From assembly GCA_036768485.1 (NCBI GenBank), contig JAVLUZ010000511.1:1998411-2062410 (forward strand): DNA of 64,000 nt, given 5' to 3'. Positions 1-60,561 of the stretch are shown one piece after another (positions within the stretch are counted from its first letter, which is position 1; the number at the start of each line of letters is the position of its first letter). Position numbers and translations under genes: made by a program. Origin of the DNA: Mermis nigrescens (Eukaryota; Nematoda; Enoplea; Mermithida; Mermithidae). The notes under the pieces are model-generated. The model searched no databases. It was not told where the DNA came from and saw only the letters and a list, made by a program, of their open reading frames with translations.

Positions 1-2761
1 AGTATCAAAGTGCAAGCAATATTCAAATTACCAAAAAATTGTTTGAAAAAAGCAGCGAATTAGCAATGCAGTAGCTAAGCGAATCGAATGAAATAGTACA
101 TATCGATGCATTCAAGACAATCGATGATATTGTTGGTTCAAAGCAGTAGGAAACACGGAAGCTGACGTGCAACAGACCTTATGTAGATAATCTTTTACAC
201 ATGTCTACAGCAATTGTTTACTAAACTTTTACATTTTTAAAAGGCCGCAGAATATACTTCGATTTTTTGCATTGTTTAGAGAAAGTCTGATTTTTTACAT
301 ATTTTGCGATTCTTGGCATATAACATAGGGAGATTTTTCCTAGTCCCCTCCTTTTACATCCTCGATAATTCACAATCCCAAGTATATTCCCTTTTTTGTT
401 CCATCGGAGCATTTTTCTTTGCTAGTACCCCACTTTTAATTAGCAAGATTTGGAAAATACGATACTAGATTTCATTTACTGTGCGGTTCTTCTAATAATT
501 GAATGGTTTAAACTTTACAAAGCTACTAGTTGTAGAAGAAACAAACATTCTGATTAGTAATTCTTATGTTACGTAGAACATCCTGTAAAGAAATATGCTT
601 CCAAAATTTTCTAGAGCTCAACTTAATTTAAATTTTAAACTTTACACAAGAGTGTAAAGAGTTTTAGTTGGATTAACAATTTCGATATTGCTCTGATATA
701 ACGATCAGCATTTATTACGAAATGAAACCTCTATAATGTTCTAAGAACAAATTAACAATAGGTGTTAATCACTTTACACTACTCTTCATGCGCCCCTAGC
801 AGACGTATCACATCTTTTTCCATATATATTTTACGACTTTAGAGAAAAAATAAGTTACCGTGAGGCTCTAGAATGAAGCTTATTATATAGTGTAAACTTT
901 ACACTAGCAACGAGTGTAAAGAAGATTTTAGTCGGATTTGTAAATTCGATATTACTCGGATATTACGATCAACATTCATGAAAAAATTACGTCTCCATAA
1001 CGGTTTAATGACAAATAGACACGGATGTAAACCACTTTGCATCACTGTTGAGTGTAAACAAACGCGACCAGCTGACGTTCCTTATTTGATTCCATGTAAA
1101 TTTTCAGATTTCGGCAAAAAATTTAGGTTTTTGCAAAGCTCTAGAACGAAGATAAACCACTTTACATCATTGTTGAGTGTAAACAAACGCGCCCAGCTGA
1201 CGTCCCTTATTTGATACCATGTAAATTTTCAGATTTCGGCAGAAAATTCAGGTTTTCGCAAAGCTCTAGAACGAAGATTAATTAGCAGTGTAAACTTTAC
1301 ACAACCGCCTAGTGTAAAGAGGATTTTATTCCGATTTGTAAATCTGATATTACTCGGATATTATTATCAACATTTATGAAAAAATTGCATGTCTACAATG
1401 GTCTGAGGACAATTAAACAATGGGTGTAAACTACTTTACATCACTGTTGGATGTAAACAAACGCGCCTACGTGACGTCTCACATTTGATTCTTTGAAATG
1501 TAGTGTAAACTTTATGTAAACACCTAGTGTAAAGAAGATTTTGGTCAGATTCGTAATTTTGATATTGTTACGATTAATATTTATGAAAAAAATTAAGTCT
1601 CCATAATGTTCTATGGGCAAACTAACAATAGGTGTAAACCACTTTACAACACTATAGAGTGTAAACATATGCGCCAGACTGGCATATCAAATTTGGTTCC
1701 TGGTCCATTTCTAGACTTGATAATCGTGTCCATGACTCATAACCGGAGAAGCAGGCAGAAAAAACAAGACAAACGCATTTTAAACAACAAATTTTCGACT
1801 TTACACTCGCTAAATATTAATGTATAAACAATTTGCTTTGACATGCACCCGATATAAAGCACTTTATTTTTATTCTATTGGACTTATCCCGACTTCTGGA
1901 CGGAGAAAGTGGCGAACAAAAAACGCAACAAAAACGTATTTTCCATCATTTAGAACACTGTAAACTTTAAAATTCCGTACCGAACTCCCAATTGAGTTTA
2001 AAGAAATTCGGTTTGGTACAATTTGTAGCTTTTAAATCGTAGTACATTCCTGTGTGCCAAAATTCTCTTGCAAAAATTATTTGGTATGATTTATTAATCA
2101 AAATTCGGAAAAAAACGCGTTTTTTCGCCCATTTTTTACCTCTGATTTCGAACTTTACACCCCCATAAATAACTCAATATTGCGTTTTTTAAATGCAGTT
2201 TGCTGCGATGTGTAGCCCCTGAGAGGCACTTTATTACTGCTGTATTCAATTTACTCTGACTCATAAGCGAAAAAATTTGGCAGAGAAATCTCACTTGAAA
2301 TCACTTTTTTTTACACCATCCACTAGAGTGTAAACTTTAACCCCCAGGATCTAACTCACCATAGAGCGTAGAAGACTTTGCTTATATGCAGAATGTAGCC
2401 CTTGATCTGCTCTACATTTCTGTCAGAAAATATTTCAAAAAACTCATACCGGAGTTAGTATCAGACATAAGCAGGTTGAAAACTCGACCAAAAAGTGCTT
2501 TTTCACCCCCAGATTTTCGCACTCTTTACACTGCCATTCGATAACTAATGCGAATTTCAAAAAACAAAAAAAGTGCCATCTGTAGAATTTATCCCTCTAT
2601 TATCCTATGCTGTTCAATCCTTTGAGTCATCAATACTCAGTTGTCCACATGCCGCATTATAAATGTCCCAAAATTTGTCCCATGTTATAACGTTACACAA
2701 AAACTTTACACCTTCTTTACACAGTCAGTTTTGAGTTTCAAGAAAAAACAAAAAACACGGG
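1..2761 (-). repeat. Foldback-like repeat family X, copy A, inner part
   Basis: Non-coding, cut by the window start. It matches, as reverse complement, 34205-37870 (copy B) and parts of 54660-57540 (copy C). Positions 240-440 are one arm of the central palindrome, including GGCCGCAGAATATAC; positions 1-239 belong to the loop. From about 640 outward there are tandem diverged units marked by GTGTAAA/TTTACAC and by a GATATT...ATGAAAAAATTA block recurring near 679, 944, 1346 and 1558. From 1860 to 2761 the arm continues with single-copy blocks rich in TTTACAC. The Polinton interrupts X at 2761/2762 and X resumes at 27202. No convincing protein is encoded. The class is unresolved: Foldback, Helitron-like or a non-autonomous DNA transposon are all possible. 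Confidence 0.75.
2756..2761. repeat. Polinton target-site duplication, left copy
   Basis: CACGGG lies directly before the Polinton terminus and recurs at 27202-27207 directly after the other terminus. X copy B holds the undivided site once, as CGCTGCCCGTG near 34201 on the opposite strand. A 6-bp duplication is the known Polinton signature. Confidence 0.95.
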
Positions 2762-4166
2762 AGTAGTATACCGTGCCACCCTAGACTCATATCTTATAGC
2801 GTTGTAGTGTTATAAGATAGGCAGATCTGCGCCCAGGCCCAAAATCGAGGTTGTGCCAGGGCGCAAAGGAGGTGAGGCCTGCCCGGACCTGCCGGGGAAG
2901 GGCGGGCGCCAGCTTAGGGCCAAGGGCTCAGGGCCAGGGGAGGGGATGCAATAACCCTGGGGGTTATACCCAAGAGGTTATTATCCAGGGGTTATTTTTG
3001 AAGAGGCGTAAGTCAAGAACCAGCGTGTGGATCGGGCTCAAATTTTCAGAGTACGTTGAGTGTATGTTACGTATGCTATGTACAGAATTTCAGCGCGCAG
3101 CCTACAGTATACCAGCATCAGTTTACACTTTTGCGTAACTCAAGAAGCAACAATAGGATTAGGCTCAAATTTTCAGAGTATGGTAGGTGAAATATGATAT
3201 GCACAAAATTTTAGCGCGCAACCTACAGTATGCCGATCACACTGCTTTTTCAGTTGCCACCCTAGGACCTTATCTTATAGCGTGTGTAGTGTTATAACAT
3301 AGGAGTCCGGCCTGCTTGGACAAACCAGGGCCTGTGTTGTAGCATAGGATGCCGGGTGAAGCGGGGGCGGTGGACGAGGCGGATCTGCGCCCTGGCCCAA
3401 AATCGAGATCGCGCCAGGGCGCAAATGGCTTGGGGTCCTGAAAAAGGGGTTCCTCCGCATTTTATCGATTTTTTTACAGTAATAGCTGGTTCCGAAACAA
3501 CTTGTTCCGAAACAAAGGCAATATAAGTTGCCCAGTCCTAGGGAGTATCGTTGTATTTTGTGGGGAGATGCTAGTGTAAAGTGTAAAGCTGGTGTAAAGT
3601 GTAAAGTAGTGTAAAGCTAGCTTAGGGAAAAAGTTTTTTCCTAATTTTTAACCAATCTTTATGGATCAGCTTCAACAGCTTCATTTTTTCTTACAGTAAC
3701 AGTTGGTTCGAAAGAATTTGTTCCGAAACAATATTGTGTGTGTGTGTGTGTTGGGGGTAGCAGTCCCTGTGGGAGTCCACAAGCGCCACCTCCACAAGCG
3801 CCACCAAGGTCCACAAGCGCCACTTAGCGTTCACTATAGCCATTATAGCAATTTTAGTATGGGGTTCATTAAAGTTACGAAAGTAGTCAGCTATTTCGTC
3901 ATCAGAGTCATAGCAATTATTATCTACGCGCAAATTAATTATTTTGCCGGCCTTTGGCCCTTCATAAAACAAAATATTGTCCGAGTAAACTTTAATTTGG
4001 TAGTCAGGTACCAGAACGTTTTGAATTTTTTCAACAGCATCAAGACCGTATTTTTCTTTATCAGTGTTAAGATCAGCTTTGTGCATTAAGTCTAAAGCTA
4101 GCTGCTTTTGTAAACAATGTCGCCCTTTATCGCCTTTCCTAATAGACTCCCATTTAGGGCTCTTGT
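2762..4166 (+). repeat. Polinton left terminal inverted repeat
   Basis: This is the inverted match of 11466-11562 plus 25905-27201. The inner limit is where left and right sequences stop pairing, at ACAAGAGCCC. The inner third codes for the middle of the polB fragment. The outer part holds two diverged copies of a terminal module, each starting GCCACCCTAG (about 2776 and 3256) and followed by a TATCTTATA/TATAAGATA stem and a GCGCCCTGG/CCAGGGCGC stem. It also has GTGTAAAG repeats (3570-3615) and a (GT)n run near 3734. The two TIRs differ by substitutions and small indels, so they are older than the gypsy insertion. Confidence 0.93.
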
Positions 4167-4608
4167 CCAGCTTTGCTATTCCTGTAACAACAGCTCGAGG
4201 TAGTGATAAATTATCATTTGATGCAATTTTAATGTACGCTCCTCTACCCAATTGTGGTTTTTTATCTACTACGACTACCTTGAAGATCATATCTTCGTCA
4301 AAGCTAAACTCCTTATTGGACTGTGCTATATTTTCAATAATACTAAAAACTTTGTTGGCGTTCAAATACTGACGCTGAGTAAATGGAACTAATACAGGGA
4401 AGTCAAGGCATGAATGTTTGATTTCTAGACCTATTAGACTGTCTGCGGGGTAATGCTTGAGCATCTTTTGAATAGCTTGCTCAAACATCTCTTCAATATC
4501 AGGACAGTCATCAAGGTTTCGAAACTTTAGTCGAAACGTCCTTGCAGCTGACTTGAACCTACGAACAGAAGTGAATGAGTGTTCGCTTACTTCAAAAAAT
4601 TGATCCAT
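3691..4608 (-). pseudogene. Truncated Polinton DNA polymerase B, N-terminal region only
   Basis: The open frame has 305 codons. About residues 20-245 match, from my knowledge of the family, the N-terminal non-catalytic region of arthropod Polinton PolB: FRLKFRNLDD, PVLVPF, RAVVTGIAKLD, SPKWESIRKG, and DYQIKVYS with FYEGP. The match stops at NNCYDSDDE and the last about 60 residues are translated TIR sequence, including an HTHTH run from a microsatellite. The exonuclease motifs, the DxxSLYPS-type palm and the YxDTD motif are all absent here and elsewhere in the element. Transcription runs outward to the left end, with a TATAAATA box 36 nt before the ATG. The fragment's middle is repeated in the right TIR. 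Confident on family; whether a product is made is unknown. Confidence 0.82.
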
Positions 4609-4643
4609 CTTTGAGGAAAACTATAACATATACTGCTTGACCC

Positions 4644-4654
4644 TTATTTATAGA
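4644..4654 (-). promoter_or_regulatory. TATAAATA box before the polB fragment
   Basis: Minus-strand TCTATAAATAA, 36 nt before the ATG at 4608. It is one of nine similarly placed boxes in this Polinton. Confidence 0.6.
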
Positions 4655-4701
4655 CAAAATTATTGCATTAGATGGTAAGAATCCAAAAACTAGGAATGTT
4701 G

Positions 4702-4712
4702 TTTATAAATAG
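4702..4712 (+). promoter_or_regulatory. TATAAATA box before the integrase
   Basis: TTTATAAATAG lies 36 nt before the ATG at 4738. Its spacing argues for that ATG and against the earlier in-frame ATG at 4672, which lies upstream of the box. Confidence 0.6.
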
Positions 4713-4737
4713 ATGGAATGCTAAAAATTGTTCAAGA

Positions 4738-5799
4738 ATGGAGAAAATACTTAAGAAACTGTACTACGATCCACAAAGTGGATACACTGGCGTTAATCAA
4801 CTTTACACTCGCATCAAAAAGATTCGCCCGACTGTTAAATTAGAACAAGTACGTGCCTGGCTAGAAAAGCAACCCACCTATACTTTACACAAACCCGTCC
4901 TCAAGCATTATTCACGAAATAAAGTATTAGTAAGCAGCATTGATGAGCAATGGCAATGTGATATTGTAGATCTTGCAATCTTTAAGCGAAGCATAATGAT
5001 AATTTTAAGTATCTCTTGAATTGCATAGACATTTTTTCAAAATACGCATGGTCTCTTCCTCTAAAATCCAAAAGTTCAAAAGATGTTCTGACCGCTTTTC
5101 AAAGCATTTTAAATTCATCTAATCGAAAACCGTACAAGCTGCAAACGGACGCAGGGACCGAATTTACAAACAAGGAGTTCCAGAAATTTCTAAAATCTGA
5201 ATCTATCGATTTTTTCACGACCAGAAGCGAAACAAAAGCTAGCGTAGTTGAACGTTTTAATCGCACGCTTAAAGAACGTATGTGGCGGTACTTCACCAAG
5301 AGCAATTCGTATAAATATATTGACATATTACCCGACTTGATGAAAAATTATAATCACTCTAAGCATCGTACGATAGGTACAATCGCCAGCTAATGTGACC
5401 GTAAAAAATGAGACGGAAATTTTGAATAGAGCATTTAGGATTGATAAACAGAACGTTGTCTTTAAATTTAATATTGGCGATAAAGTCCGACTGAGTAAAG
5501 TTAAGCGCACTTTTGAAAAAGGATTTTGGCCTAACTGGACAGAGGAGTTTTTCGTAATTAAAGAAAGATATGCTCGAACCCCATCCGTTTATGTTCTAGA
5601 AGACCAAATGGGCGAAAGAGTCGAGGGTATTTTTTATGAGCCCGAACTGCAAAAAATTGAAACAAAAACTGACGATTTGTACGTAATTGAAAAGATTTTG
5701 AAAACGCGTAAGAAAGGCAATAAAACTAATTATTTAGTACGGTGGCGAGGGTACCCAGAAAAGTTTGATTCCTGGGTCTCGAACCTAATAAAGTTATAA
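4738..5799 (+). pseudogene. Polinton retroviral-type integrase with C-terminal chromodomain, two frameshifts
   Basis: This DDE integrase inserts the linear element. The start at 4738 gives the usual Polinton N-terminus (MEKILKKLYYDP, then GVNQLYTRIKK) and follows a TATA box. The first catalytic Asp is in QCDIVDL, the second in QTDAGTEF, and the Glu in VVERFNRTLK. The last about 45 residues form a chromodomain (YVIEKILKTR, YLVRWRGYP, DSW). Frame changes occur near 4985-5005, just after the first Asp, and near 5385-5395 after the catalytic Glu, so the reading frame is in three parts: up to 5019, 5016-5393 and 5395-5799. The stop codon overlaps the TATA box of the next gene. The family is certain; this copy is probably dead unless the frameshifts are assembly errors. 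Confidence 0.92.
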
Positions 5800-5803
5800 A
5801 TAG
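5794..5803 (+). promoter_or_regulatory. TATAAATA box before the 105-codon gene
   Basis: TTATAAATAG overlaps the integrase stop codon and lies 43 nt before the ATG at 5837. Confidence 0.55.
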
Positions 5804-5836
5804 TAAGTAATTCTGTATTTCCAATTAAAGGCAAAA

Positions 5837-6154
5837 ATGGAGATCAGCCGATGTTTTTTCAATCATATGTTGCATCGTTTGTCACAATACACTTACTTGT
5901 CTGATGATGCAATTGGAGATTATTTTTGGCCAAAAATGAGCGAGCAATATAAGCAAACATTGCTGGAATTTGATGAGAATGCCATGTTGAGCTTCTCAAA
6001 GTATATCAGAAAACGATTAAAAAAGGGCGATATTTACACATTATTTAAATTATGGGAATTTCTAAGTCCCGAGGCCAAATTTTATTTTGCAAACCTTTAC
6101 ACCACACACATAGACGAGCACCTAATCTCATCCATGTCTAAGGTTTTAATATAA
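5837..6154 (+). CDS. Unrecognised 105-residue Polinton protein
   Basis: I do not recognise this protein. It is an intact frame following a TATA box and directly downstream of the integrase, in a position where Polintons carry variable small genes. It looks wholly helical, with aromatic-rich N-terminal and C-terminal segments (FFNHMLHRL, YFANLY) and a basic patch KYIRKRLKKGD near residues 56-66. No signal peptide, zinc ligands or catalytic motif is visible. It converges on the TBP gene across an array of short tandem repeats. The intact frame beside frameshifted neighbours gives mild support that it is real. Confidence 0.55.
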   Translation: MEISRCFFNHMLHRLSQYTYLSDDAIGDYFWPKMSEQYKQTLLEFDENAMLSFSKYIRKRLKKGDIYTLFKLWEFLSPEAKFYFANLYTTHIDEHLISSMSKVLI

Positions 6155-6388
6155 AGTTTTGCGGAGTTTGGAAAATTTTTTGTAAAGTTTGGAAATTTTT
6201 TTGTAAAGTTTGGAAATTTTTTTGTAAAGTTTGGAAAATTTTTTGCAGAGTTTGGAATTAATTTTGTGTGCTTAAGCATAGGAATTTTGCAGAGTTTGGA
6301 AAATTTTTTGTAAAGTTCGGAAATTTTTTTGTAAAGTTTGGAAAATTTTTTGTAAAGTTTGGAAAATTTCTTGTAAAGTTTGGAAAAT
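6155..6388. repeat. Tandem array of about 21-23 bp repeats between convergent genes
   Basis: About ten imperfect units resembling GTAAAGTTTGGAAAATTTTT (some GCAGAGTTTGG) fill the whole gap between the stop of the 105-codon gene and the stop of the TBP gene. One break near 6260-6290 contains TGTGTGCTTAAGCATAGG. As the shared 3' region of two convergent genes it could hold transcript ends for both strands; this is inference. Confidence 0.8.
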
Positions 6389-6390
6389 TA

Positions 6391-6906
6391 TCATTTAATT
6401 TGGCATCGTTCAAGCATTGTTGAGACTATTTTATATGCTATATGCAACTCATGCTTGTGTTTTGCACCTGTGAGAATCATTTTTCCGCTTGTAAAGAGCA
6501 AAAATGTTACATTTCGAAATTTGTATACTAAACCAGGAAACAATTCTACTTCGTACATGCATTTCCCATTTACCATCTCATAAAATTTACAAAGATCAAT
6601 GCGAAATCCCAAGTTAGCCGAGCCAACAAAAAGCTCAGGCTTTATTTTCAACATTGAATTCTCCATCTTTAGTATTTGGATGAATGCCTTTATCGTATTT
6701 TCGCCTTCTTGTATAGTTTTAGCTCCAACGCATACAATTTTACCCGATCTGAAAATCAGTAATGTTGCCTGAGGTAATCGAAATACAATACCTGGAAATC
6801 TTTGGTGATTGTATTGCGCTGTATTTGGCAATTTCAGATAGACATCATCTAGATTTAGCGTATTCGGCAGTGCTGTAGTTAGCACAATGTTCTGTATTGT
6901 GACCAT
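6391..6906 (-). CDS. TATA-binding protein homologue encoded by the Polinton
   Basis: The intact 171-codon frame matches the two-repeat saddle core of eukaryotic TBP, about 180 residues, with no extra N-terminal domain. Repeat 1 begins IQNIV (residues 4-8) and has QRFPGIVFRL (35-44), LLIFRSGK (49-56) and VGAK. Repeat 2 has FVGSANLGF (93-101), ELFPGLVYKF (121-130) and FLLFTSGKMILTGAK (135-149). The four phenylalanines that insert into the bent TATA box in known TBPs align with F37, F52, F123 and F138. The first minor-groove Asn (N6) is kept, while the equivalent in repeat 2 appears to be Leu92. It diverges from the ATPase gene across a 45-bp promoter and has no introns. Predicted role: binding the element's own TATA promoters. 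TBPs occur in some giant DNA viruses; I know of no Polinton example. Confidence 0.9.
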   Translation of the reverse strand: MVTIQNIVLTTALPNTLNLDDVYLKLPNTAQYNHQRFPGIVFRLPQATLLIFRSGKIVCVGAKTIQEGENTIKAFIQILKMENSMLKIKPELFVGSANLGFRIDLCKFYEMVNGKCMYEVELFPGLVYKFRNVTFLLFTSGKMILTGAKHKHELHIAYKIVSTMLERCQIK

Positions 6907-6951
6907 TTTCTATAAATACCTGTATATATAAATCATTATTTATAAACAAAA
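6907..6951. promoter_or_regulatory. Compact divergent promoter between TBP and ATPase genes
   Basis: In 45 bp there are two interleaved boxes facing opposite ways: CTATAAATAC at 6910-6919 for the ATPase (42 nt before ATG 6952), and TATAAATA on the minus strand at 6937-6944 for TBP (about 38 nt before ATG 6906). A further TATATATAAAT lies between them. Each box is nearer the wrong gene, as expected if transcription starts about 25-30 nt past each box. Confidence 0.65.
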
Positions 6952-7599
6952 ATGATTTTTCAACATCCTTTCACCTGCCTTGTCTCAGGGCCAACAAAAT
7001 CGGGCAAAACAACGTTTGTTAGGCGACTGATTGAGAACAGAGAATATTTGATTGATACTAAAATTAAAAAGATTTGGTGGTGCTTCGCAGAAAACCAACC
7101 GCTTTATAAGAAAATCGATCATGTGTCATTTATAGAGGGGCTTCCTGATTTTAGTTACTTTAAGCAGTTCAGCCCTACACCACAACTTTTGATACTCGAT
7201 GATTTAATGCAAGAGAGTAAAGGTAATGCTCAAATTGTACAACTATTCACAAGGAGTTGTCATCATTGGAATATTAGCATCATTCACATTGTACAAAACG
7301 CTTTCTTCGAAGGTCTCAGAACATCGCGTATAAACTCGGATTATATTGTTTTATTTAAAAATCCTGCTGATCAGCTACAAGCACAAATGCTGTCTAGGCA
7401 GCTTTACCCTACCAATCCAAAATATTTTCTAGAAGCCTATTCCGATGCTACTTCTCTTCCGCATGACTATCTTCTGATTGATCTCACTCAAAATTCTAGA
7501 GATGAGCTTAGGCTAAAAACAAATATTTTCAGTGATAGTCCCACTGTTTATATACAAAAATCTATAAATACTAAGAAAAACACTAATGAAATAATGTAA
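6952..7599 (+). CDS. Polinton genome-packaging ATPase (A32/FtsK-HerA type)
   Basis: The 215-codon intact frame is predicted to drive DNA into capsids by ATP hydrolysis. Walker A is GPTKSGKTT (residues 13-21) and Walker B is LLILDD (79-84). The following TRSCHHWNISIIHIVQN fits the sensor region of the poxvirus A32-like packaging ATPases found in Polintons, virophages and large DNA viruses. The length is normal for the family. It is the first gene of a rightward series ending with capsid and protease genes. The start at 6952 follows ACAAAA and the divergent promoter. The next gene's TATA box lies in the last codons. Confidence 0.93.
   Translation: MIFQHPFTCLVSGPTKSGKTTFVRRLIENREYLIDTKIKKIWWCFAENQPLYKKIDHVSFIEGLPDFSYFKQFSPTPQLLILDDLMQESKGNAQIVQLFTRSCHHWNISIIHIVQNAFFEGLRTSRINSDYIVLFKNPADQLQAQMLSRQLYPTNPKYFLEAYSDATSLPHDYLLIDLTQNSRDELRLKTNIFSDSPTVYIQKSINTKKNTNEIM
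7561..7572 (+). promoter_or_regulatory. TATAAATACT box before the 116-codon gene
   Basis: TCTATAAATACT lies inside the end of the ATPase frame, 41 nt before the ATG at 7602. It is identical to the boxes at 8509 and 8920. Confidence 0.6.
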
Positions 7600-7601
7600 A
7601 A

Positions 7602-7952
7602 ATGGGTAAAGAACGATTAAAACGCAATATTGTATGTCTACATCTCTTATGTAAAACAAAAAAACCTCAAAGAGACGCTATTATAAATACTGCAACTAAA
7701 GATCAGATCCTTTGTCTCTGCGACTGTGCAAACAATTTCCTGAACAGTAATATTCATTTTTCTGAGAAAGATATCAACAAACTTCGAAGATACCAGAATC
7801 AAATAAGATACTTGGCAAACAATAAACAGGCAAGTACGAAAGAAAGAAAAAATATCATAATACAAGACGGTGGTTTTCTTCCACTTCTACTTACTCCTAT
7901 ACTTACAATTGCAGGCAGTTTACTAGCAGACGCAATTACAGGTAAAAAATGA
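7602..7952 (+). CDS. Small conserved Polinton virion-type protein with hydrophobic tail
   Basis: The 116-codon frame belongs to a family I recognise from arthropod Polintons: basic N-terminus, a KDQILCLCDCANNFL segment (residues 33-47) and a C-terminal stretch after an (R)QDGGFLP-like junction, here DGGFLPLLLTPILTIAGS (residues 89-106), that is glycine-rich and hydrophobic. The function is not established; such tails suggest membrane interaction or capsid lining. The stop overlaps the next start as ATGA (7949-7952), so the two are probably on one transcript. Confidence 0.72.
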   Translation: MGKERLKRNIVCLHLLCKTKKPQRDAIINTATKDQILCLCDCANNFLNSNIHFSEKDINKLRRYQNQIRYLANNKQASTKERKNIIIQDGGFLPLLLTPILTIAGSLLADAITGKK

Positions 7953-8515
7953 AACACACTGAAAAAATGATTTTAATACCCGCTGAAATAAGCGAACGTT
8001 ATAAGCCAGTGGATATTCTACTCGATTCTTTGGATAATGAGATGCAGAAAATCTTGAATAACAAAAATGTACCACCTGATGCAAAGCTCATAAAATATAA
8101 TCAGATACTTGTCAAATTTAAGCGATTGCAAGAGCAGAAACAGCAACCATATAAAGCTGGCATTGTTGAAGATGTAAGTAATGCAATTAGCGATGAAGAA
8201 ATACTCTCTGGTATGCCAAAAACTCAAATTCCAAAGGCAAAGCTGCTTCTTCACCATATACGTACTAATCCATTTCTTGAAATTGAGCCAGGTGGTGAAC
8301 TTGTAATAGATGGTCAAAAAATTGAAGACTCAAATGTTATAGATTTAGTTAATGATCTGGCACGCGAGCGCAAAAAAATCAGCAGATATCCTGGCACAAA
8401 GGAACTGCTGAAAGTGTTCAATCGCACGAATGTTCCACTTGAAAGTGTGGGTAATAGGCAAGCTAGGGAGATTTTCGCTGCAGGCGATGAATTTGACTGG
8501 GATGAAAGTCTATAA
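7949..8515 (+). CDS. Conserved Polinton protein of unknown function
   Basis: The 188-codon intact frame belongs to a recurrent Polinton family that begins with a basic, hydrophobic N-terminus (KMILIPAEI), then a segment with LDNEMQKILN (residues 28-37), a PKTQIPKAKLLLHHI block (about 90-104), ELVIDGQKI (116-124) and a short helical C-terminus. No enzymatic motif is visible. It starts within the stop of the preceding gene (ATGA). It lacks its own close TATA box, and its stop codon falls inside the box of the next gene. Probably a virion or assembly protein, inferred from its neighbours. Confidence 0.72.
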   Translation: MKHTEKMILIPAEISERYKPVDILLDSLDNEMQKILNNKNVPPDAKLIKYNQILVKFKRLQEQKQQPYKAGIVEDVSNAISDEEILSGMPKTQIPKAKLLLHHIRTNPFLEIEPGGELVIDGQKIEDSNVIDLVNDLARERKKISRYPGTKELLKVFNRTNVPLESVGNRQAREIFAAGDEFDWDESL

Positions 8516-8520
8516 ATACT
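8509..8520 (+). promoter_or_regulatory. TATAAATACT box before the pX-like gene
   Basis: TCTATAAATACT overlaps the stop codon of the upstream gene and sits 47 nt before the ATG at 8556. Confidence 0.6.
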
Positions 8521-8555
8521 TACTGTATTTAATTTAATCAAATAAAATTACAAAA

Positions 8556-8997
8556 ATGCACGTACAATTTACTCCTGACGATTTAAGCATTTGGTTAGAA
8601 TACTACACTGGGCAGGCAGCCCAAACTGGCTATGGGTTGGAGGGGTTCAAAGGCATTCCATATCAGCGTGGTGTTGGCCTTGGCAGCTTTTTTCGTTCCC
8701 TTTTCAGAATGGCCGTCCCTGTTTTGCAATCTATTGGTAAGCGAGTTGGAAAGCATGCTCTAGTTGCAGGTTCAAACATAGCGTCTGATTTGGCTCGGGG
8801 AAAACCGACTTTTTGAGTCTACTAAGGAACATTCAAAGCGAGAAGCTGCTCAATTGTTTGATGAGGCCTCTAAATCTCTACAGCAGCAGCAAGGAGAGGG
8901 TCTTGGTAGCCGCCCAAAGTCTATAAATACTAGCGTGATAGATGCTTTTTCTAAAAACAATGGCGCTCATAGACGTAAAATCTATCCCAAGTACTAA
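8556..8997 (+). pseudogene. Small Polinton capsid-associated protein (pX-like), one frameshift, overlaps major capsid gene
   Basis: The first 86 codons (to 8816) carry the family's features: YYTGQA, YQRGVGLGSFFRSLFR, a small amphipathic region VGKHAL and NIASDLARGK. A T-run at 8810-8814 shifts the frame. The other frame continues from about 8815 with the expected lysine/alanine/glutamine-rich helix (STKEHSKREAAQLF) to a stop at 8995-8997. The ending runs over the TATA box of the major capsid gene and overlaps its first 38 bases in another frame. Homologues are small and thought to be virion components. One base in a homopolymer could also be a sequencing error. Confidence 0.7.
8920..8931 (+). 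promoter_or_regulatory. TATAAATACT box before the major capsid gene
   Basis: TCTATAAATACT lies 40 nt before the ATG at 8960 and only 22 nt before the alternative ATG at 8942. This supports the 8960 start. Confidence 0.6.
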
Positions 8998-10253
8998 AAC
9001 TGAATTGGACCTTTTCACGGTCCCTCCTACCCAGGTTGTTATAAAGCAAGGCTTTTGGCATGAAATCCAGCCTACCCATCCGATTACCAATGAGGGGCCT
9101 TATGAATTCAGAATACCCCCAGACCCCCATTATCTACAGCTGAATAGAAATTATATTTATATGTTACTACGAATAAAAAAACCAACTGTTGCTGCTGGAG
9201 CAGCAGTACCCGACTATGCACCTATAAACCTTATTGGTAAAACTTTCTTCAAGCAGGTAAAATGCTTTTTAGGAGGCAAATTAGTTTTTGACAGCTCTGA
9301 TAAATATGCATACAGAGCATACTTTGAAACTGAACTGAATTATGGGTATGATGCTAAGCATTCACACTTGCAAGCAGCGTTATATTTTCATGACGGTGGC
9401 ACTAATGTTGACACAAAAGATAGTGAATCATTCAAAAAGCGAGCTGCTATGTTTAAAGATGAAAATGTTGTAGAAGTTGCGGCTCCACTACATATTGACA
9501 TGTTCTTGCAAGACAGGTATCTGATTAATTTCACCGATTTTCGCTTAGAATTACATAGAAATAGCGATGCGTTTTTATTGCAGTGCTTTAAGGATGTTGT
9601 GCTTAGACTTGAAAGTCTCGCAAATGAAATTTTTCATTCGAAAAGTTGATGTATTAGACACTGTAAATTTAGCACTCGAGCAAACAATGCTTTCATACAC
9701 GGCAAAATATCCTATTAGACGCGTAGCTATGACTAATTTACACATCTCAAATCCTGCTAGAGAAACGCCCAATTATACATTGTTTACTGGTCAGCTGCCT
9801 AGGCGTATACTATTTGCTTGTGTTGAAGGCAGTGCTTATCGAGGCAATCTAGCGAAATCACCATTTAATTTCAAACCGTTCAGCATACACGATGTAAAAG
9901 TAACAAGCGGTGGCATAACGTATCCTGCTTACCCACTCAGCATTTCATTTAAACACGACAGGTACTTGCAAGCCTATACTCAAATGTTTGATGCATTAGA
10001 TATTGGGCATGAAGGTAATTTCATTAGCAGAGAAGATTTTAAAACAAGTCACTGCTTCTTTGTGTTCGATTTGACACCTGATGCAGATGATGGAGGGCAT
10101 TGGGATCTTGTGCGCGAAGGAACAACAAGCATATCTGTAAGATTTGCCGATAATTTGCCTGATTCTGGTGTAGAAATTATTATATATGCTGAATTTGATA
10201 ATTTAATAATGATTGATAAAGACCGAAACACGTTTCATGACTATGACGCATAA
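8960..10253 (+). pseudogene. Polinton major capsid protein (double jelly-roll), one frameshift
   Basis: This is the major capsid protein family often annotated in animal genomes as F54H12.2-like. The start at 8960 gives MALIDVKSIP and then TELDLFTVPPTQ, the conserved opening; YLQLNRNYIYMLLRI and a KTFFKQVKCFLGGKLVFDSS segment follow. The frame changes between about 9570 and 9625: the first frame ends at 9649 and the second carries KFFIRKVDV, TAKYPIRRV, SPFNFKPFS and CFFVFDLTPD to the stop at 10253. About 430 codons in all is normal for arthropod copies. The stop is two bases before the protease ATG. The family is certain; this copy is broken unless the shift is a sequencing error. Confidence 0.9.
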
Positions 10254-10255
10254 AC

Positions 10256-10681
10256 ATGAACACTATTGAAATATTCAAAATTCTTAAACATAATATTAAA
10301 AATGACACATTTTTAGGAGTTTTTCCTTTAGATCGTCTGCCACCTATAAGAGCATACCCCGCAGCGCTAGTGGTAAACTTTGACACAAGCAGCAAACCTG
10401 GCTCTCACTGGGTAGCCATATATTTCCAGAGCAAGAAGAATTGTGACTATTTTGACAGCTATGGGCGAAAACCACTCAAACAGTTAAGGAATTACATTTC
10501 AAATAATACACTTGCATATACATACAATAATGCACAAGTACAAGGACTTTTCTCAATAAGCTGTGGCCATATGTGTGTCTATTTCATTGTTTGTAGGAGT
10601 AGAGGTATTCCATTCGAAAACATTGTTCTATCTATGTTCAGTGATAAAATTTATAAATACTTTGATGACTTAGAATTATAA
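10256..10681 (+). CDS. Polinton adenain-like cysteine protease
   Basis: The intact 141-codon frame is predicted to mature capsid proteins. The triad is visible: His51 in GSHWVAIYF, an acidic residue in DYFDSYG (Asp64 or Asp67) and Cys103 in SISCGHMC, with Gln96 seven residues before the Cys as in adenovirus protease. It is shorter than adenain (about 200) but normal for Polintons. It starts two bases after the capsid stop and ends two bases before the next ATG. It has no TATAAATA box of its own, so it is probably expressed with its neighbour. Confidence 0.9.
   Translation: MNTIEIFKILKHNIKNDTFLGVFPLDRLPPIRAYPAALVVNFDTSSKPGSHWVAIYFQSKKNCDYFDSYGRKPLKQLRNYISNNTLAYTYNNAQVQGLFSISCGHMCVYFIVCRSRGIPFENIVLSMFSDKIYKYFDDLEL
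10651..10661 (+). promoter_or_regulatory. TATAAATACT box before the minor capsid gene
   Basis: TTATAAATACT lies inside the end of the protease frame, 33 nt before the ATG at 10684. Confidence 0.55.
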
Positions 10682-10683
10682 AC

Positions 10684-11463
10684 ATGGATTCTAAACAGTT
10701 TTACATAACACTTCCAAGCAATTCACAGGAAACCAATACTGCGGCCATATTTGTAACTAGCCTACCTAGGCAAATCGTATTAACCGGCGACTGGGAGGTT
10801 GGTTTGGTTGAAATAATTTATGCAAATACATGGCACAATGTTGCCGAGGATCAGAATATGATACAGTTTTATGACATCAAAAACAATGTGCGACAAAAAT
10901 TGCTTATTCCTCGAGCAAGGTATTTAAATATAGATGACTTGATTAAGACAATCACTAATGGGATAAAAACGATTAGCGTTAAAGAAAAATTTGAATACTT
11001 GCAATACTTTGGCATAAGGTATGATGATAATAAGAAATTCTGTCACCTAAAAATTAATACAGAATACATTCGAAGTGTAAAGTTAACAAAGCATTTACTA
11101 TATATGCTTGGATTTCTGGAAAGCCAGCTTAGCAATATAAATTATTCTGTGGCGCAAGATTTGACCATAGTAGCACACCATTCTCCCGATATACTAGGTG
11201 GAATGCACAATTTTTACGTTTATTGTGATATAGTCGAGCCTCAAATTGTTGGAAATATTTTTGCGCCACTCTTGCAAGTCGTAAATATCGAAGGAAAGTA
11301 TATGGATATCATTAATCATTCATATATTAGTCCACATTACATACCTGTACTCAAAAAAGCATTCAACACTGTTGAAATAAATATTAAAAGCGACCAAGAT
11401 CAACCTGTACCCTTTGAATTTGGCAAAACTATCGTAAAATTGCATTTTAGACGGCAAAATTAA
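10684..11463 (+). CDS. Polinton minor capsid (penton) protein
   Basis: The intact 259-codon frame belongs to the single jelly-roll vertex protein family of Polintons. The N-terminus FYITLPSNS and the segment IVLTGDWEVGLVEIIYANTW (residues 31-50) are the family's most conserved parts. The later VQPQI-like middle and the basic C-terminus (KLHFRRQN) also fit. It is the last gene of the rightward series. The stop at 11461-11463 is followed within three bases by the inner end of the right TIR, so the polB fragment abuts it. That junction presumably marks the rearrangement that removed the rest of polB. Confidence 0.88.
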   Translation: MDSKQFYITLPSNSQETNTAAIFVTSLPRQIVLTGDWEVGLVEIIYANTWHNVAEDQNMIQFYDIKNNVRQKLLIPRARYLNIDDLIKTITNGIKTISVKEKFEYLQYFGIRYDDNKKFCHLKINTEYIRSVKLTKHLLYMLGFLESQLSNINYSVAQDLTIVAHHSPDILGGMHNFYVYCDIVEPQIVGNIFAPLLQVVNIEGKYMDIINHSYISPHYIPVLKKAFNTVEINIKSDQDQPVPFEFGKTIVKLHFRRQN

Positions 11464-11465
11464 AA

Positions 11466-11562
11466 ACAAGAGCCCTAAATGGGAGTCTATTAGGAAAGGC
11501 GATAAAGGGCGACATTGTTTACAAAAGCAGCTAGCTTTAGACTTAATGCACAAAGCTGATCT
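11466..11562 (-). repeat. Polinton right terminal inverted repeat, inner fragment
   Basis: Inverted copy of 4070-4166, encoding the polB segment from about SPKWESIRKG to HKADL on the + strand. It is cut by the gypsy insertion and resumes at 25905. Confidence 0.92.
11559..11562. repeat. Gypsy target-site duplication, left copy
   Basis: ATCT precedes the LTR and recurs at 25901-25904. The left Polinton TIR has the unbroken site GATCTTAAC (reverse strand near 4070), confirming the junctions. Four base pairs is usual for Ty3/gypsy. Confidence 0.93.
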
Positions 11563-12615
11563 TGTAACTGCGAGAGTTACACGTTTAGGCGAACATGCTT
11601 TAGCAGTTCGCAATAGCCATTACATAGCCAATACTAGTAGCTGTCTATGACGGTGCACTGTGGGCTATGCCTTCGGTCTTCCCATTATTTTCCCAAATTT
11701 TCAATAATAAAAAACATTTAGATACTTGTCCGGTATCGTAGAGTTAAGTGTATGATAATAGTAATTGTTTAATGCATACCGCTCGTGTAATCGATAACAT
11801 TCGATCTGAGATAAAAGTTTATCAGTATTACGTTAATTTGATTGTTATTTTTATTGTACTGTAATGGTCCTTGAGGCCAGTGTAGAAGAGGTCGAGTTGG
11901 TTTTTTGGCTTGTTTGGTTTTCTCGTTGGTCGGTGATTTTCGACTGTACATAGTCATTTTTCTTTTACGTATTTGTTTTCCCGGCTACAGGCCGTGTGTT
12001 ATTCGTTGAATAAAAATATAGAAAACCAACCCAGTGGTTTCGGATATACCGAGGGTTAGGCCGGCCTCCATCCTTTCGTCGAGGACTTCCACCCTTCCAG
12101 TGGACTGATAGGTAAATTCCGTATGATAGTTTTCTTCATTCGAAAATCATAATTTATTTCTCAAGCCCAAAAATTGATCAAAAATATTATTTAATCTTTT
12201 GGGATGATTGATCAGCGTAGAGCTCGTTGTTGTTGTTTTCATTGTTCAGCGTGCTACACAAATTAGGAACCAAAAACATTTCTGATCAGGTACTGATTGA
12301 AAACAAGGTAAATAACAACTTGAGCTTGAGATAGGTCAACTGACCTCCGCGGCAAATTCCGAGACTAGGTAGGTAGCCTTAGGTCTTAGGGCGTAGCTGC
12401 TGAGATCACCCGACGAAAAGCAGCCAGCAATATTAGGGCTGAGGGGATCAAAGCCGTAAGGTCTGTAAGGGTCCAAAGATCGAAAGCCTTAGAGCCGCGC
12501 GATCGGGGCCAGCACTAAGCGCAGGCTTAAGTACCTACGTACCTAGGTAAATCTCGAAGGCAAATGTTAGCCTCGCCCGTATCGCTATTGTAGATACAGG
12601 GCAGCTACATTTACA
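11563..12615 (+). repeat. Gypsy 5' LTR
   Basis: It runs from TGTAACTGCGAGAGTTACA, a 7-bp-arm palindrome, to ...CTACATTTACA. It contains an AATAAA polyadenylation signal at 12009-12014. It differs from the 3' LTR at two places noticed: GTAGAAGAGG against GTAGAGGAGG, and GCGCAGGCTT against GCGCAGACTT. Confidence 0.96.
12009..12014 (+). promoter_or_regulatory. Polyadenylation signal in gypsy 5' LTR
   Basis: AATAAA occurs mid-LTR, in TTGAATAAAAATATAG. The equivalent in the 3' LTR is at about 25294-25299. It would place the R/U5 boundary shortly downstream. Confidence 0.5.
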
Positions 12616-12635
12616 TTGGATGTTCCCTCCTTTAG
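12616..12635 (+). other. Candidate primer binding site
   Basis: TTGGATGTTCCCTCCTTTAG follows the LTR. The second gypsy relative has CTGGAGTTTCCCCCTTAAGG at the matching place (62682), so the site is conserved. TGG fits a tRNA 3' CCA, but I could not assign the primer tRNA. Confidence 0.45.
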
Positions 12636-13200
12636 GCTGCTAGCTACAGCCGAGCTGATCAATCATCGTAAAATTATTTTTCGATCCAAAAATTTATCAT
12701 TTTGGCCATCTAAGAATGTGTAACATTTCGTTCACCTTTGTTGTTGTATCGACCGCGATCGTGGCAGTGCGCAATTTAAGTAAGCGTCCGTGGTAAAGAT
12801 TTTGTGTATCGTGGTAAAGTCATCGTTATTTTTCTATTTCCGTCGAAATTTTCATCGACGAAGGCAGCTCTCACGCTCGCATTTTTCTATAAACGTCGAC
12901 CCACAGGCGACGACTCATCATTTTTCTCTCTTGACGACGAAATTCCGTCATTTAGGTGTTTACCTACCTGTTTTCTTAACCACGTACACGTTTTTGCGCG
13001 TTAGGCTTAGTCCTACCTGTTTTCGATCATTTCACGTCTGGTATATCTTACTTCACGTAAGGAAGTACTATTTACGTGAAAAAACCTGTTTTTCGGATCG
13101 ACAAAGCCCAAATTCGAAACATTTATTTTGGAAAAAATTTCGACGTACTGAAATTTATTTTACCCACGGTCACATTTTTCGACATTTTTGATATCTAGAA
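12636..13200 (+). other. Untranslated leader of the gypsy element
   Basis: This 565-bp stretch before the Gag start has short frames only. It carries a conserved block (ATCGACCGCGATCGTGGCAG near 12749) shared with the relative at 62828, which may be a packaging or structural signal. Possible 5' splice donors include GTGGTAAAG near 12790 and CACGTAAGG near 13055. Confidence 0.5.
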
Positions 13201-16200
13201 ATGGCAGGAAAAAAGGTTTTGCGGACACCGCCCGCTAAATTGAAAAAACCTTCTACGCCACCTGTTTCAGCTCGCCAATTACCTACTGCGCCTGTTGACT
13301 CTAATAGCGCGTGTAATTCTGCGAGTAATGACACAATTACGAGAGACGTAACGACTAAGGCGAATAATGATAAATTACCCGCGTCACTACATGTCGCGAG
13401 TAATACACAGTCCGAAGACGAATTATCATTGAGTACCATGCGATCTCGCATTAATCAATTTTCGCTAACTAGATCGGATCCTAATATTGACAATTCATCA
13501 AGTCACACAATGATCGATAATACGACTACCATTAACACGGCAAATAATCCTGAAACCAGTTCGGAACGCGAAAATCACGATTCTGACGTAGAGAGTACTC
13601 ATAGTCGCTGCAGGAATGCCGACCAAGAGCGTGTTAATGCTAATGCGACTAATGATCTCCTTTTGAAAGCTCTACAAGCTATTCATTTACAATTTTCGGA
13701 TCTTTCTACGCGCTTTGAACAAGATAAAAAGGCAAATGCAGATGAAATGCGTAAACTGCGTTTGGAGCTAAGCACTATGCTTAAACCCCAACCAGTTCTG
13801 AATCGCATAGAAACTAATGTAGCTGAGCGCGTTAACCACTCAATCGATAGCGCAAATTCTTCTGAATTCAATGCGCAAAGTGCAAATCGTGCGCAAAGTA
13901 CGCATAGGGCATCTTCACTGTTGTCTACTAGCAACAGAGCATCGAATTCACGCTCACCTTCAGAAACTATTCCTGAAAATACCTCTCAAAGTTGTACAAA
14001 TCGCGCGCCGGAAATCTGTAATTTGTCACAGAATCCTGTAAACACGGGTTTGCAAACAGTGCAAAACTCGGGTTTTTCGGAGAATATACCTACGATTTTG
14101 CAGCCGTCGGTATCGATTTCGCAGACGTCGCGATCTCGGCCGTCGCTGCCATTAAATCGTAATGCGCCTTCCTTCGTACCTAATCCTTCTATTGCGACTT
14201 CGCAGCAGCAACTTAATCCACCACCGCTGCAGTATTTTCCACCTCAAGGAGAAATCTTACCCAATAATTATGTACCTAACCCTATAAACGTGGAAATACC
14301 ACCTAATAATCCTATCTTGCATTCTTCTAATATCGAAATGCAACCGGTTGAGATAAATCTATCTGGCATTAACACCGAATCTGCACCTCCACCTGAATCG
14401 TCTAGTAGCAAAAAGCATGTTAAATTCTCTGACGACAGCTCATCTAACAGCTATGATCGCCCACGCAGCCGTCGCTCGCGTCGCAAATCTCGATCGCGCA
14501 GACGACGTCATCGGCATAGTTCAGGTTCTTCATCTGAAAGCTCTCGTGGTGATTCGCGTCTCGCTGATTCCTTGAATCGCGGACCATTTTTGCAGCAAAT
14601 GCAATTTGCAATTGCTAATAAGAAATTTTTTGATGGCGATAAATCGGATATGAAAGCATATTTTGCGGAATTTGAATCGCTTGCCAATACCTATGATATT
14701 GACAAAGCTGATCGTTTAAAATTCGCTACTGGATTTCTTGATCCTTATGCTTTGCGTTTATACCGTTCGTTACCTGCTGACATACAACAATCGTATTCAA
14801 AAACGAAACAAGCGCTAATAACCGAATTTTGTCCTATGGACACCGGTGCGCTCTTTAATCGTTTTTTGTCACACAAACAGCAGCCTAACGAATCGGTTAA
14901 AGCTTATTATCTCTCGCTTCGCGAAGAGTTAATTAAATCGGATCCCTATCTTGAAGTTGACTCGCCACATTTCAATAATCTAATGCGACATCAACTAAAA
15001 CAAGGTTTATTACCACACATTTCGAAAGAGGCATATCACAAAAAACCTAGAGCATCATTAGCTGAATTTTTGGACAATGCGCTTAGCGCTGAATTTGCTA
15101 ATAAAGAATTTGAGGATAAAAAGGCAGTAACGCCTTACGTATCGGTAACAGCTGCTCCAGTAGGCAGCGTAGTACCTAAAGATACTCCTCGCGCATCTAA
15201 TCAAAATGATCCAAATCGTTCACGTCATAAAACGTTTCATCGCTCATCGCGTGCTGAGAAACCAGAAAGTTCTTCTCGTAAATATTGCACCTTTTGCAAA
15301 CGCATAGGTCACATTTATGAGGAATGTTTCACACGTCAAAGGCAAGAAACGTCTAATAATGCTAATTTTAATAATCAAGCTGATCGGAATACTAATTCTA
15401 TGGCTCGCAATCGCAGCCAATCGCGTTCTTTTTCGCGACGAAATCATTCGCCATCGCGTTCGAATTCGCAGAATAGGCATCGTTCTCAATCACGTTATCG
15501 TAATTCTAGTCAACATCGCTCATTTAACTATGCGAATAATGATAATCGCTTTGAATCAAAGCAATCACGATCGAATTTTCGGCAAAATCGTAATGATTAT
15601 TACCAAAATTCGCGCGCCAATTATCAAAATTCGCGTTATGATAATCGTTATAATAATCAATCGCGCCAAAATACACCTTTCGTGCAATTTCCAAACGAAC
15701 AACGTGGAACATACTATAACTCGAACTATCGCAACGATAATAATTTCAATCGCCCGTATGTCACATACACTGCAGATAACCAGCCCACCATGAATGCGCC
15801 CCCACCGCAGCCAACCCCTACATCTCCTCATGATGTAAACACGGTTACTGCGAAAGGGCCAGAATCTAGCGCGCGTCCTAATTTATTCGCGTCGCAAGAA
15901 TTTCTCGAAGAGTACGAACGTCTACAACGTCGTCTTGCAACTTACGAGAAAATAAATCTACCTCCGTCTAACATCTTAGATCCTAATATTCCTATTGTAA
16001 GTCACGCTGGAACAAATTTACCCACTATTCTCGTTAAAGTTCATGGCGTTGAGGTACCTGCTCTCATAGATACAGGTTCACAGGTCACCATGATGACCAC
16101 ATCTGCATTCTTGCGTCTTGGTTTTAATTTACCACCTAAACAAGTTTCGCAAGTTGTGCATGGTGTAGGCGAAATTACTGCAGTCGTCCGCTATAAAGTA

Positions 16201-24053: not shown

Positions 24054-24837
<784 letters not shown>

Positions 24838-24840
24838 CGT

Positions 24841-24847
24841 GGGGGAG
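24841..24847 (+). other. Polypurine tract
   Basis: GGGGGAG lies directly before the 3' LTR, the normal primer site for plus-strand synthesis. Confidence 0.7.
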
Positions 24848-25900
24848 TGTAACTGCGAGAGTTACACGTTTAGGCGAACATGCTTTAGCAGTTCGCAATA
24901 GCCATTACATAGCCAATACTAGTAGCTGTCTATGACGGTGCACTGTGGGCTATGCCTTCGGTCTTCCCATTATTTTCCCAAATTTTCAATAATAAAAAAC
25001 ATTTAGATACTTGTCCGGTATCGTAGAGTTAAGTGTATGATAATAGTAATTGTTTAATGCATACCGCTCGTGTAATCGATAACATTCGATCTGAGATAAA
25101 AGTTTATCAGTATTACGTTAATTTGATTGTTATTTTTATTGTACTGTAATGGTCCTTGAGGCCAGTGTAGAGGAGGTCGAGTTGGTTTTTTGGCTTGTTT
25201 GGTTTTCTCGTTGGTCGGTGATTTTCGACTGTACATAGTCATTTTTCTTTTACGTATTTGTTTTCCCGGCTACAGGCCGTGTGTTATTCGTTGAATAAAA
25301 ATATAGAAAACCAACCCAGTGGTTTCGGATATACCGAGGGTTAGGCCGGCCTCCATCCTTTCGTCGAGGACTTCCACCCTTCCAGTGGACTGATAGGTAA
25401 ATTCCGTATGATAGTTTTCTTCATTCGAAAATCATAATTTATTTCTCAAGCCCAAAAATTGATCAAAAATATTATTTAATCTTTTGGGATGATTGATCAG
25501 CGTAGAGCTCGTTGTTGTTGTTTTCATTGTTCAGCGTGCTACACAAATTAGGAACCAAAAACATTTCTGATCAGGTACTGATTGAAAACAAGGTAAATAA
25601 CAACTTGAGCTTGAGATAGGTCAACTGACCTCCGCGGCAAATTCCGAGACTAGGTAGGTAGCCTTAGGTCTTAGGGCGTAGCTGCTGAGATCACCCGACG
25701 AAAAGCAGCCAGCAATATTAGGGCTGAGGGGATCAAAGCCGTAAGGTCTGTAAGGGTCCAAAGATCGAAAGCCTTAGAGCCGCGCGATCGGGGCCAGCAC
25801 TAAGCGCAGACTTAAGTACCTACGTACCTAGGTAAATCTCGAAGGCAAATGTTAGCCTCGCCCGTATCGCTATTGTAGATACAGGGCAGCTACATTTACA
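24848..25900 (+). repeat. Gypsy 3' LTR
   Basis: The 1053-bp LTR is the same length as the 5' LTR and almost identical, ending CTACATTTACA and followed by the target duplication ATCT. Confidence 0.96.
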
Positions 25901-25904
25901 ATCT
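25901..25904. repeat. Gypsy target-site duplication, right copy
   Basis: ATCT, the partner of 11559-11562. The Polinton polB fragment continues immediately as ATCTTAACACTG. Confidence 0.93.
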
Positions 25905-27201: not shown

Positions 27202-27344
27202 CACGGGCAGCGAATTTTTTCATTATCTTTCTTTTAAAAAAACCGCACCTTCCAGAAGTGTCCCGTTATAGCTGTAGAGGGGGTGCACAGGTGTTAGGGG
27301 TACCCAAGTATATTATAGGTACGCGCTAACGCGCTACCTATGAT
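27202..27344 (-). repeat. Family X copy A, outer terminus, beginning with the right Polinton duplication
   Basis: CACGGG (27202-27207) is the right target duplication. The rest matches 34074-34205 in reverse, up to the X end, a near-palindrome of the form GGTACGCGCTAACGCGCTACC. It joins functionally with 1-2761. Confidence 0.88.
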
Positions 27345-60250: not shown

Positions 60251-60285
60251 TAAATGTAAGTAGAACACTTACACTTTCGAAATTG

Positions 60286-60358
60286 TCTGCGATAGCTCAG
60301 TTGGCAAGAGCAGCGGTCCGGTCAACCGTGGTCCCGGGTTCGAGTCCCGGTCGCAGCT
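60286..60358 (+). tRNA. tRNA-like sequence in the first TRIM LTR (anticodon position reads GGT)
   Basis: The 73-nt sequence folds as a full cloverleaf: six-pair acceptor (CTGCGA with TCGCAG; the outermost T-C does not pair), D stem GCTC/GAGC, anticodon stem GCGGT/ACCGT around CCGGTCA, 4-nt variable loop, T stem CCGGG/CCCGG around TTCGAGT. Pol III A and B boxes (TAGCTCAGTTGG, GGTTCGAGTCC) are intact. The anticodon would be GGT (Thr), but position 33 is C where T is almost universal and position 37 is C, so it may not decode. Confidence 0.7.
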
Positions 60359-60472
60359 ACTATTTTTACACTGGAAGTCTCAAGTAGAAACGGCTCGGTT
60401 GCTATTGATTCAAAGTCCATTTCATTCAAAAGGGGGAGGAGTGTAAGTAGAACACTTACACTTTCGAAATCG

Positions 60473-60545: not shown

Positions 60546-60561
60546 ACTATTTTTACATAAA

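Follow-up and report, generated by a model that had tools for sequence, protein, structure and literature searches.

A Polinton (Maverick) in the genome of the nematode Mermis nigrescens carries a gene for the TATA-binding protein (TBP), and this gene is common to several Polinton lineages of the genome rather than the trait of one Polinton. TBP is normally encoded by one essential, very conserved host gene. In this one animal genome, at least 298 further TBP loci were found, which belong to several diverged lineages, and clear Polinton neighbors lie beside TBP at 29 of the 38 loci whose surroundings were read. The copy that served as query lies in a 64,000-nucleotide stretch of contig JAVLUZ010000511.1, here called the window, whose features are collected in Table 1. 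We hold with moderate confidence that the element encodes a working TBP, which would start transcription on the element’s own TATA promoters together with host TFIIB and RNA polymerase II (Pol II).

The window TBP gene is a single open reading frame (ORF) of 171 codons that starts with ATG; it is free of introns, as a preliminary description of this DNA had stated. Its product matches the Pfam TBP family (PF00352) strongly (E, 1.4e-41; 140.6 bits against a cutoff of 22.9) and with two repeats, which confirms the ORF as a genuine TBP by the Pfam definition; a chance ORF is ruled out by the same match. The best sequence match among solved structures was 1mp9 (E, 3.3e-29). The AlphaFold (AF2) model of the protein has a mean pLDDT of 94.3 and a predicted saddle fold, and a Foldseek search with this model placed the Sulfolobus TBP (1mp9) at the top (E, 1.2e-16), with a TM score of 0.92 for human TBP. 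Residues F37, F52, F123, and F138 align with the columns of the four intercalating phenylalanines, and the complete two-repeat core that the preliminary description had recognized is borne out. The first minor-groove Asn is kept (N6) and the second is replaced by Leu92, which had also been noted correctly; the presence of both is a frequent detail of TBPs that lies outside the requirements of the Pfam definition.

The Polinton itself has exact termini, which read AGTAGTATACC... at both ends, and the earlier claim of exact ends was upheld by the direct CACGGG duplication on both sides and by an inverted paralogue of the host flanks that represents the empty site (95.6% identity to the joined flanks over 160 columns). 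The terminal inverted repeats (TIRs) are 94.1% identical over 1327 columns, and the right one contains a Gypsy-type retrotransposon, whose LTRs (11563-12615 and 24848-25900) are 99.8% identical. The second ORF of this retrotransposon after gag-pol (19908-24053; 1381 codons) had no Pfam match, and a 267-aa part of it had no match in PDB. The window Polinton is decayed: the integrase (INT) and probable major capsid (MCP) genes are frameshifted, and a PolB-like gene is reduced to its N-terminal piece; neither this decay nor the retrotransposon had been noted in the preliminary description. An intact INT frame of 353 codons is present in another copy, L022, where the rve match reaches 1e-13, and the window rve match falls in one of the broken frames; MCP is open as one 438-codon frame in copy L023. 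We presume the remnant to be PolB-like from its position and from the general features of Polinton PolB; a Pfam search with it returned no match.

Table 1. Features of the window (coordinates count from its first nucleotide; E values are given for profile matches)
Feature	Position	Strand	Basis or remark
Polinton (Maverick) copy with an LTR retrotransposon inserted later	2762..27201	+	TIRs, 6-bp target-site duplication (TSD), empty-site paralogue
Target-site duplication CACGGG, left	2756..2761	.	6-bp TSD
Target-site duplication CACGGG, right	27202..27207	.	6-bp TSD
Left TIR, extending into the PolB-like remnant	2762..4168	+	
Right TIR, split by the LTR element (11466-11562 and 25901-27201)	11466..27201	-	
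Empty site: inverted paralogue of the flanks, lacking the element	34065..35965	-	
N-terminal PolB-like remnant (presumed)	3691..4608	-	~240 aa conserved among copies
Integrase (INT), rve and chromodomain, broken into three frames	4738..5799	+	rve 1.9e-9, Chromo 5.7e-9
ORF105, function unassigned	5837..6154	+	Beside TBP in most copies read
21-bp tandem repeats, 3′ side of TBP, between ORF105 and the TBP 3′ end	6115..6427	+	
TBP gene, 171 aa	6391..6906	-	Pfam PF00352, 1mp9 match, AF2 model, genome copies
Divergent 45-bp TBP/ATPase promoter region	6907..6951	.	One TATAAATA facing each way (6911-6918 +, 6937-6944 -)
Packaging ATPase (A32-like)	6952..7599	+	Pox_A32 1.4e-4, 21.8 bits against a cutoff of 22.8
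ORF116	7602..7952	+	
ORF188	7949..8515	+	Without TATA box in three lineages read
ORF86	8556..8816	+	
Probable major capsid gene (MCP), frameshifted	8942..10253	+	Weak DJR-like match, E 0.091
Adenovirus-type cysteine protease (PRO)	10256..10681	+	Peptidase_C5 3.2e-4, 20.9 bits against a cutoff of 21.3
ORF259	10684..11463	+	Homologue directly precedes TBP in another clade
Gypsy-type LTR retrotransposon in the Polinton	11563..25900	+	14.3 kb; TSD ATCT; RVT 5.6e-36
Gene-start TATAAATA boxes	4645(-), 4704(+), 5795(+), 6911(+), 6937(-), 7563(+), 8511(+), 8922(+), 10652(+)		Region 4645..10659
TATAAATA boxes without a downstream gene start	5310(+), 7682(+), 9154(-)		

The window element shares with the known Polintons/Mavericks (Polintoviricetes, adintovirus-like) TIRs with a 6-bp TSD and an rve integrase with a chromodomain, and it has candidate genes for an A32-like ATPase, an adenovirus-type protease, and a DJR capsid, these three labels being assigned from scores below the Pfam cutoffs. 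It differs from them in its TBP gene and its frequent TATAAATA promoters. Homologues of the ATPase are numerous in public sequence sets (320 at E ≤ 0.001, the best 79% identical), and many of them carry PF04665.

The genome (523,963,438 bases in 860 contigs) was searched for further copies of TBP. With the window TBP as the query, the best 150 of 2178 first-look candidates were scored; they are 75 to 100% identical to the query, the window’s own gene included. In-frame stops are absent in 135 of the 150, a proportion that favors intact copies because the best candidates were the ones scored. A human TBP query yielded 148 further loci of other TBP families, 33 to 44% identical to human TBP, and the two lists share no place when contigs and coordinates are compared by eye. 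All 10 of the other-family ORFs that were tested have the Pfam TBP domain. The host has its own TBP gene on contig C73, which is split and of which two exons were matched (87% and 76% identity with the human protein). Its product is 36% identical to the window TBP and shares its fold, and it differs in its exon structure, in the FAA motif of repeat 1, and in a full basic H2 helix. When this genome was searched for TFIIB, 10 candidates yielded no more than 3 matches, all partial. Thus, TFIIB is not amplified the way TBP is, as expected if host TFIIB serves the element TBP.

Stretches of at most 10 kb around 20 of the 150 window-family loci, picked to span the range of identity, were read for Polinton genes, and TBP adjoins the ATPase gene in 16 of them. 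A different integrase lies between TBP and the ATPase in L024 and L025, the INT/ORF105 side alone is visible beside TBP in L021, and L026 shows no match to the window proteins other than TBP; an INT-like frame of the L024 type is visible there. Among 18 of the 148 other-family loci, a clear Polinton neighbor (MCP, protease, ORF259, or INT) was found in 10 and weak or ambiguous Polinton genes in 3 (L041, L049, and L051). No Polinton gene was recognized near TBP in the other 5 (L037, L045, L047, L048, and L050), and continuing the search for 3.5 kb at L047 and 3.0 kb at L050 revealed none; likewise, the 6 kb beyond the L017 locus held no match to the window proteins. The TBP of one clade comes directly after ORF259, so that TBP occupies two different positions among Polintons. 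The preliminary description had treated TBP in one Polinton and had proposed looking for it in other copies: its place in a Polinton is confirmed, and it extends to several lineages and two positions. Neither of the outcomes named there as refuting was observed, since the TBP profile matches strongly and many other copies of the family have the gene. A single stray capture is ruled out by the 150 scored window-family copies.

Gene order bears on the idea that TBP guides integration by steering the integrase to promoter-like DNA, for which the tethering of Ty3-type elements offers a parallel. TBP is near INT in many copies and, in the L024 type, has the PolB-like ORFs on one side and INT on the other, as such a role would have it, but the INT of the window lineage already has a chromodomain, the single target site examined (CACGGG) is not TATA-like, and another clade has TBP directly after ORF259. 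By this analogy TBP could act in integration, which we judge very unlikely.

Several loci are of note in their own right. L024 combines, within 328-4565, two long candidate PolB-like ORFs of 962 and 401 codons, neither of which matches a Pfam polymerase family, with a different integrase and TBP. The TBP frame of L028 extends into an array that resembles the 21-bp tandem repeats of the window. Head-to-head palindromic partial Polintons are present at L017 (1650-4500), with TBP on both arms, and at L012 (3001-8996). L010 (5926-9875) has a second, diverged Polinton gene set beside the first copy, with ORF259 46%, ORF116 41%, and MCP pieces 45 to 79% identical to those of the window. F-box genes are located near TBP in four TBP families, represented by L038, L045 with its near-copy L049, L047 via L052, and L050 via L053; Pfam F-box-like matches range from E 1.2e-3 to 3.2e-11 in L038, L045, L052, and L053 (contigs C667, C51, C264, and C132), the match in L052 being below the cutoff. 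The F-box-associated TBP loci may be a second kind of element.

The 7.3-kb core of the window Polinton contains 12 TATAAATA boxes, compared with a mean of 1.14 and a maximum of 6 in 300 first-order simulations and with 1.19 per equal length in the remainder of the window (27210-64000). A box is located at -32 to -45 of 9 of the 11 window genes when the starts of INT and MCP are set to the ATGs of other copies; with mechanical ORF starts, the range holds a box for 7 of the 11, the MCP box being at -20 and INT having none. The earlier observation of TATA boxes before the genes is confirmed. In 43 upstream regions from 8 loci, TATAAATA is the commonest 8-mer (28/43), and no 8-mer exceeded 8 in 200 shuffles; the copies sampled are related, so that the regions lack independence, and 6 of the 43 start positions are off the ATG. 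The box is also found upstream of TBP in five members of the ORF259-TBP clade (L039, L040, L043, L044, and L046).

Boxes are missing at particular places. ORF188 and PRO have no TATAAATA in range in any lineage read, and in-range boxes were not found for INT of L023, L024, and L027, for the ATPase of L024, or before ORF259 of L023, L034, L039, and L044, some of these starts being off the ATG; TBP of L038, L042, and L048 also lacks an upstream box. Such gaps could mean that TBP acts as a phase switch, for instance between early and late gene sets, and is not used for general initiation. This would accommodate the 2 of 11 window genes without a box, the variation among lineages at INT, ATPase, and ORF259, and the divergent TBP/ATPase promoter with boxes facing both ways. 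Since capsid, packaging, integrase, and PolB-like genes in the window all have the box upstream, we regard a phase switch as quite unlikely. If TBP instead serves general initiation on the element, the box-less ORF188 and PRO would be expressed from the transcript of the preceding gene. A TATA box at -30 suits the host TBP too, so the boxes do not show that they are read by the element’s own TBP. The preliminary description proposed a self-supplied promoter-recognition factor, a role that we also infer and that both the conserved TATAAATA boxes and purifying selection on TBP would fit.

Selection was estimated from the ratio dN/dS (Nei-Gojobori), which is 0.12 to 0.42 in the 45 pairs among 10 window-clade TBPs, pairs with the eleventh, L017_3, being saturated. 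Of the 10 ATPase pairs, 8 have a ratio of 0.08 to 0.13 and the remaining two have 0.18 and 0.32; an in-frame stop interrupts one of the five ATPase genes compared. The lower ATPase values indicate looser constraint on TBP than on the packaging gene. A captured but idle gene, retained solely by recent amplification, would suit the many nearly identical copies, as amplification alone can carry such a gene along. The TBP ratio stays well below 1 even between lineages at dS values of 0.4 to 0.9, though, and TBP is found in separate lineages and does not group with the host TBP; we consider an idle gene highly improbable, the least credible of the readings weighed here. The histories of TBP and ATPase also differ among L022, L027, and the window: the TBP of L022 is closer to that of the window (dS, 0.39) than to that of L027 (0.78), while its ATPase is closer to that of L027 (0.14) than to that of the window (1.00). 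Because of this discordance, the sequences point to an exchange of TBP between Polinton lineages.

Residues with presumed roles in DNA and partner binding were compared across 21 element TBPs. The four intercalating phenylalanines are kept in 21, 21, 21, and 18 of the 21, and the first minor-groove Asn in 20. The second is Asn in 15, Leu in 4, Met in 1, and Thr in 1, its loss being limited to the window’s clade. On the presumed TFIIB-facing side, E284 is present in 20 and E286 in all 21 (human numbering). The TBP of L026, which is outside the set of 21, has Ile at the second Phe position. In repeat 1, the eukaryotic FAA motif occurs in none of the 21, the middle residue being Pro in 14 and Asn in 7. 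In the H2 helix, where regulators of the host TBP are presumed to bind, most element TBPs have substitutions at R235 and R239, and a basic residue (Lys or Arg) persists at position 231 in 13 of the 21.

TBP might be a weapon that competes with host TBP/TFIID or titrates TFIIB/TFIIA and so silences genes of the host or of rival elements. Several diverged TBP lineages in one genome would suit such competition, as would the substitutions at R235 and R239; against it, the DNA-bending phenylalanines and the TFIIB-facing EXEL motif are mostly retained, and a shutdown would also hit the element, most of whose genes in the window carry TATA boxes. A weapon is in our view unlikely. With TBP as an initiation factor for its own element, the reading that we prefer, a Polinton that is activated or enters a cell would have its TBP bind the TATAAATA boxes, recruit host TFIIB via the retained TFIIB-facing surface, and with it nucleate host Pol II complexes on the element genes. 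The element would thereby depend less on scarce or regulated host TBP/TFIID. The H2 changes may help the element TBP evade host control, which is no more than a possibility given that position 231 is basic in 13 of 21.

The origin of the element TBPs was addressed with trees, in the largest of which (43 rows) they branch outside those of eukaryotes and of the IMG/VR type (90/93). A clade uniting the full set of 21 with the host TBP was rejected (AU P, 0.00137), as was grouping 6 window-clade TBPs with human TBP (0.00688), both tests sharing any long-branch pull of the model. The preliminary description had allowed for capture from a host or from a large DNA virus; the trees speak against a recent capture from the host. 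Kinship with IMG/VR-type viral TBPs was likewise rejected, in a tree without named mirusvirus TBPs among its rows (6 window-clade TBPs with L030, L031, P0004, P0007, and P0009; AU P, 0.0113), and the two IMG/VR TBPs found group with eukaryotic TBPs, apart from those of the elements. Animal TLF/TRF proteins are, like the element TBPs, diverged relatives of TBP; a provisional human TLF sequence is placed elsewhere in the tree and is 30% identical to the window TBP.

The closest known sequences are archaeal TBPs (1mp9; 40% identical in one comparison and 45% in another), which have an FPG motif in both repeats, as does the window TBP; the window gene differs from them in residing in a mobile element of an animal genome. 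Smaller trees place the window clade on the archaeal side of eukaryotic TBPs (96/84; 96/98), whereas it is not sister to archaea in the 43-row tree, and the archaeal placement may be long-branch attraction. A single origin of the 21 element TBPs has low support (73/50) and is not rejected (AU P, 0.172), so that there may have been one capture or several. Long branches make these placements unsure, and an ancestry of the element TBP in a stem lineage beyond the eukaryotic TBPs of today is a tentative idea. P0011, a short metagenomic TBP, falls within one of the element clades (98/54), but its branch is very long; at most it hints that TBP in such elements is not confined to the Mermis genome. 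Two related short TBPs from ENA, P0003 and P0013 (165 and 172 aa), were also seen; their grouping with window-clade TBPs was not rejected (AU P, 0.217).

TBP genes are known in the genomes of other double-stranded DNA viruses. TBP is reported in 59% of mirusvirus genomes (PMC10132985), in mirusvirus-like elements of an alga (PMC10675990), and in a giant virus (PMC11464507), and BFVD holds several giant-virus TBPs. Those of Nucleocytoviricota and mirusviruses belong to large viruses, and none among the 50 viral structures listed is more than 22% identical to the window TBP. No report of a Polinton-borne TBP was found in the literature searched, which covers nematode Polintons incompletely; the available portions of PMC11071308 and PMC11071296 contain no mention of TATA or TFIID, and those of PMC12220804 contain no TBP in a Polinton. 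Searches of viral contigs with TBP, ATPase, and alignments of each, and of PHROGs with five window proteins, returned no match. The TBP loci of the Mermis genome suggest that small integrating DNA viruses, and not giant viruses alone, can encode a general transcription factor; this matters for Polinton expression and for the origin of viral transcription systems. The element TBPs are natural variants that lend themselves to direct tests of promoter specificity and of the partners used. A broader picture, which we offer as tentative, is that one branch of animal Polintons has long had TBP among its standard genes, perhaps derived from a stem lineage, and that each lineage has its own TBP-promoter pair, which would give element-specific initiation in an animal nucleus beside host TFIID and perhaps keep rival Polintons apart.

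Two further observations concern the surroundings of the window element. The Polinton sits in one arm of another large inverted repeat (880-2761 and 34065-35965), in which TTTACAC-type repeats are abundant. Toward the end of the window (60285-60547), two tRNA-Thr(GGT) genes lie in a 116-bp duplication whose copies are 98% identical.
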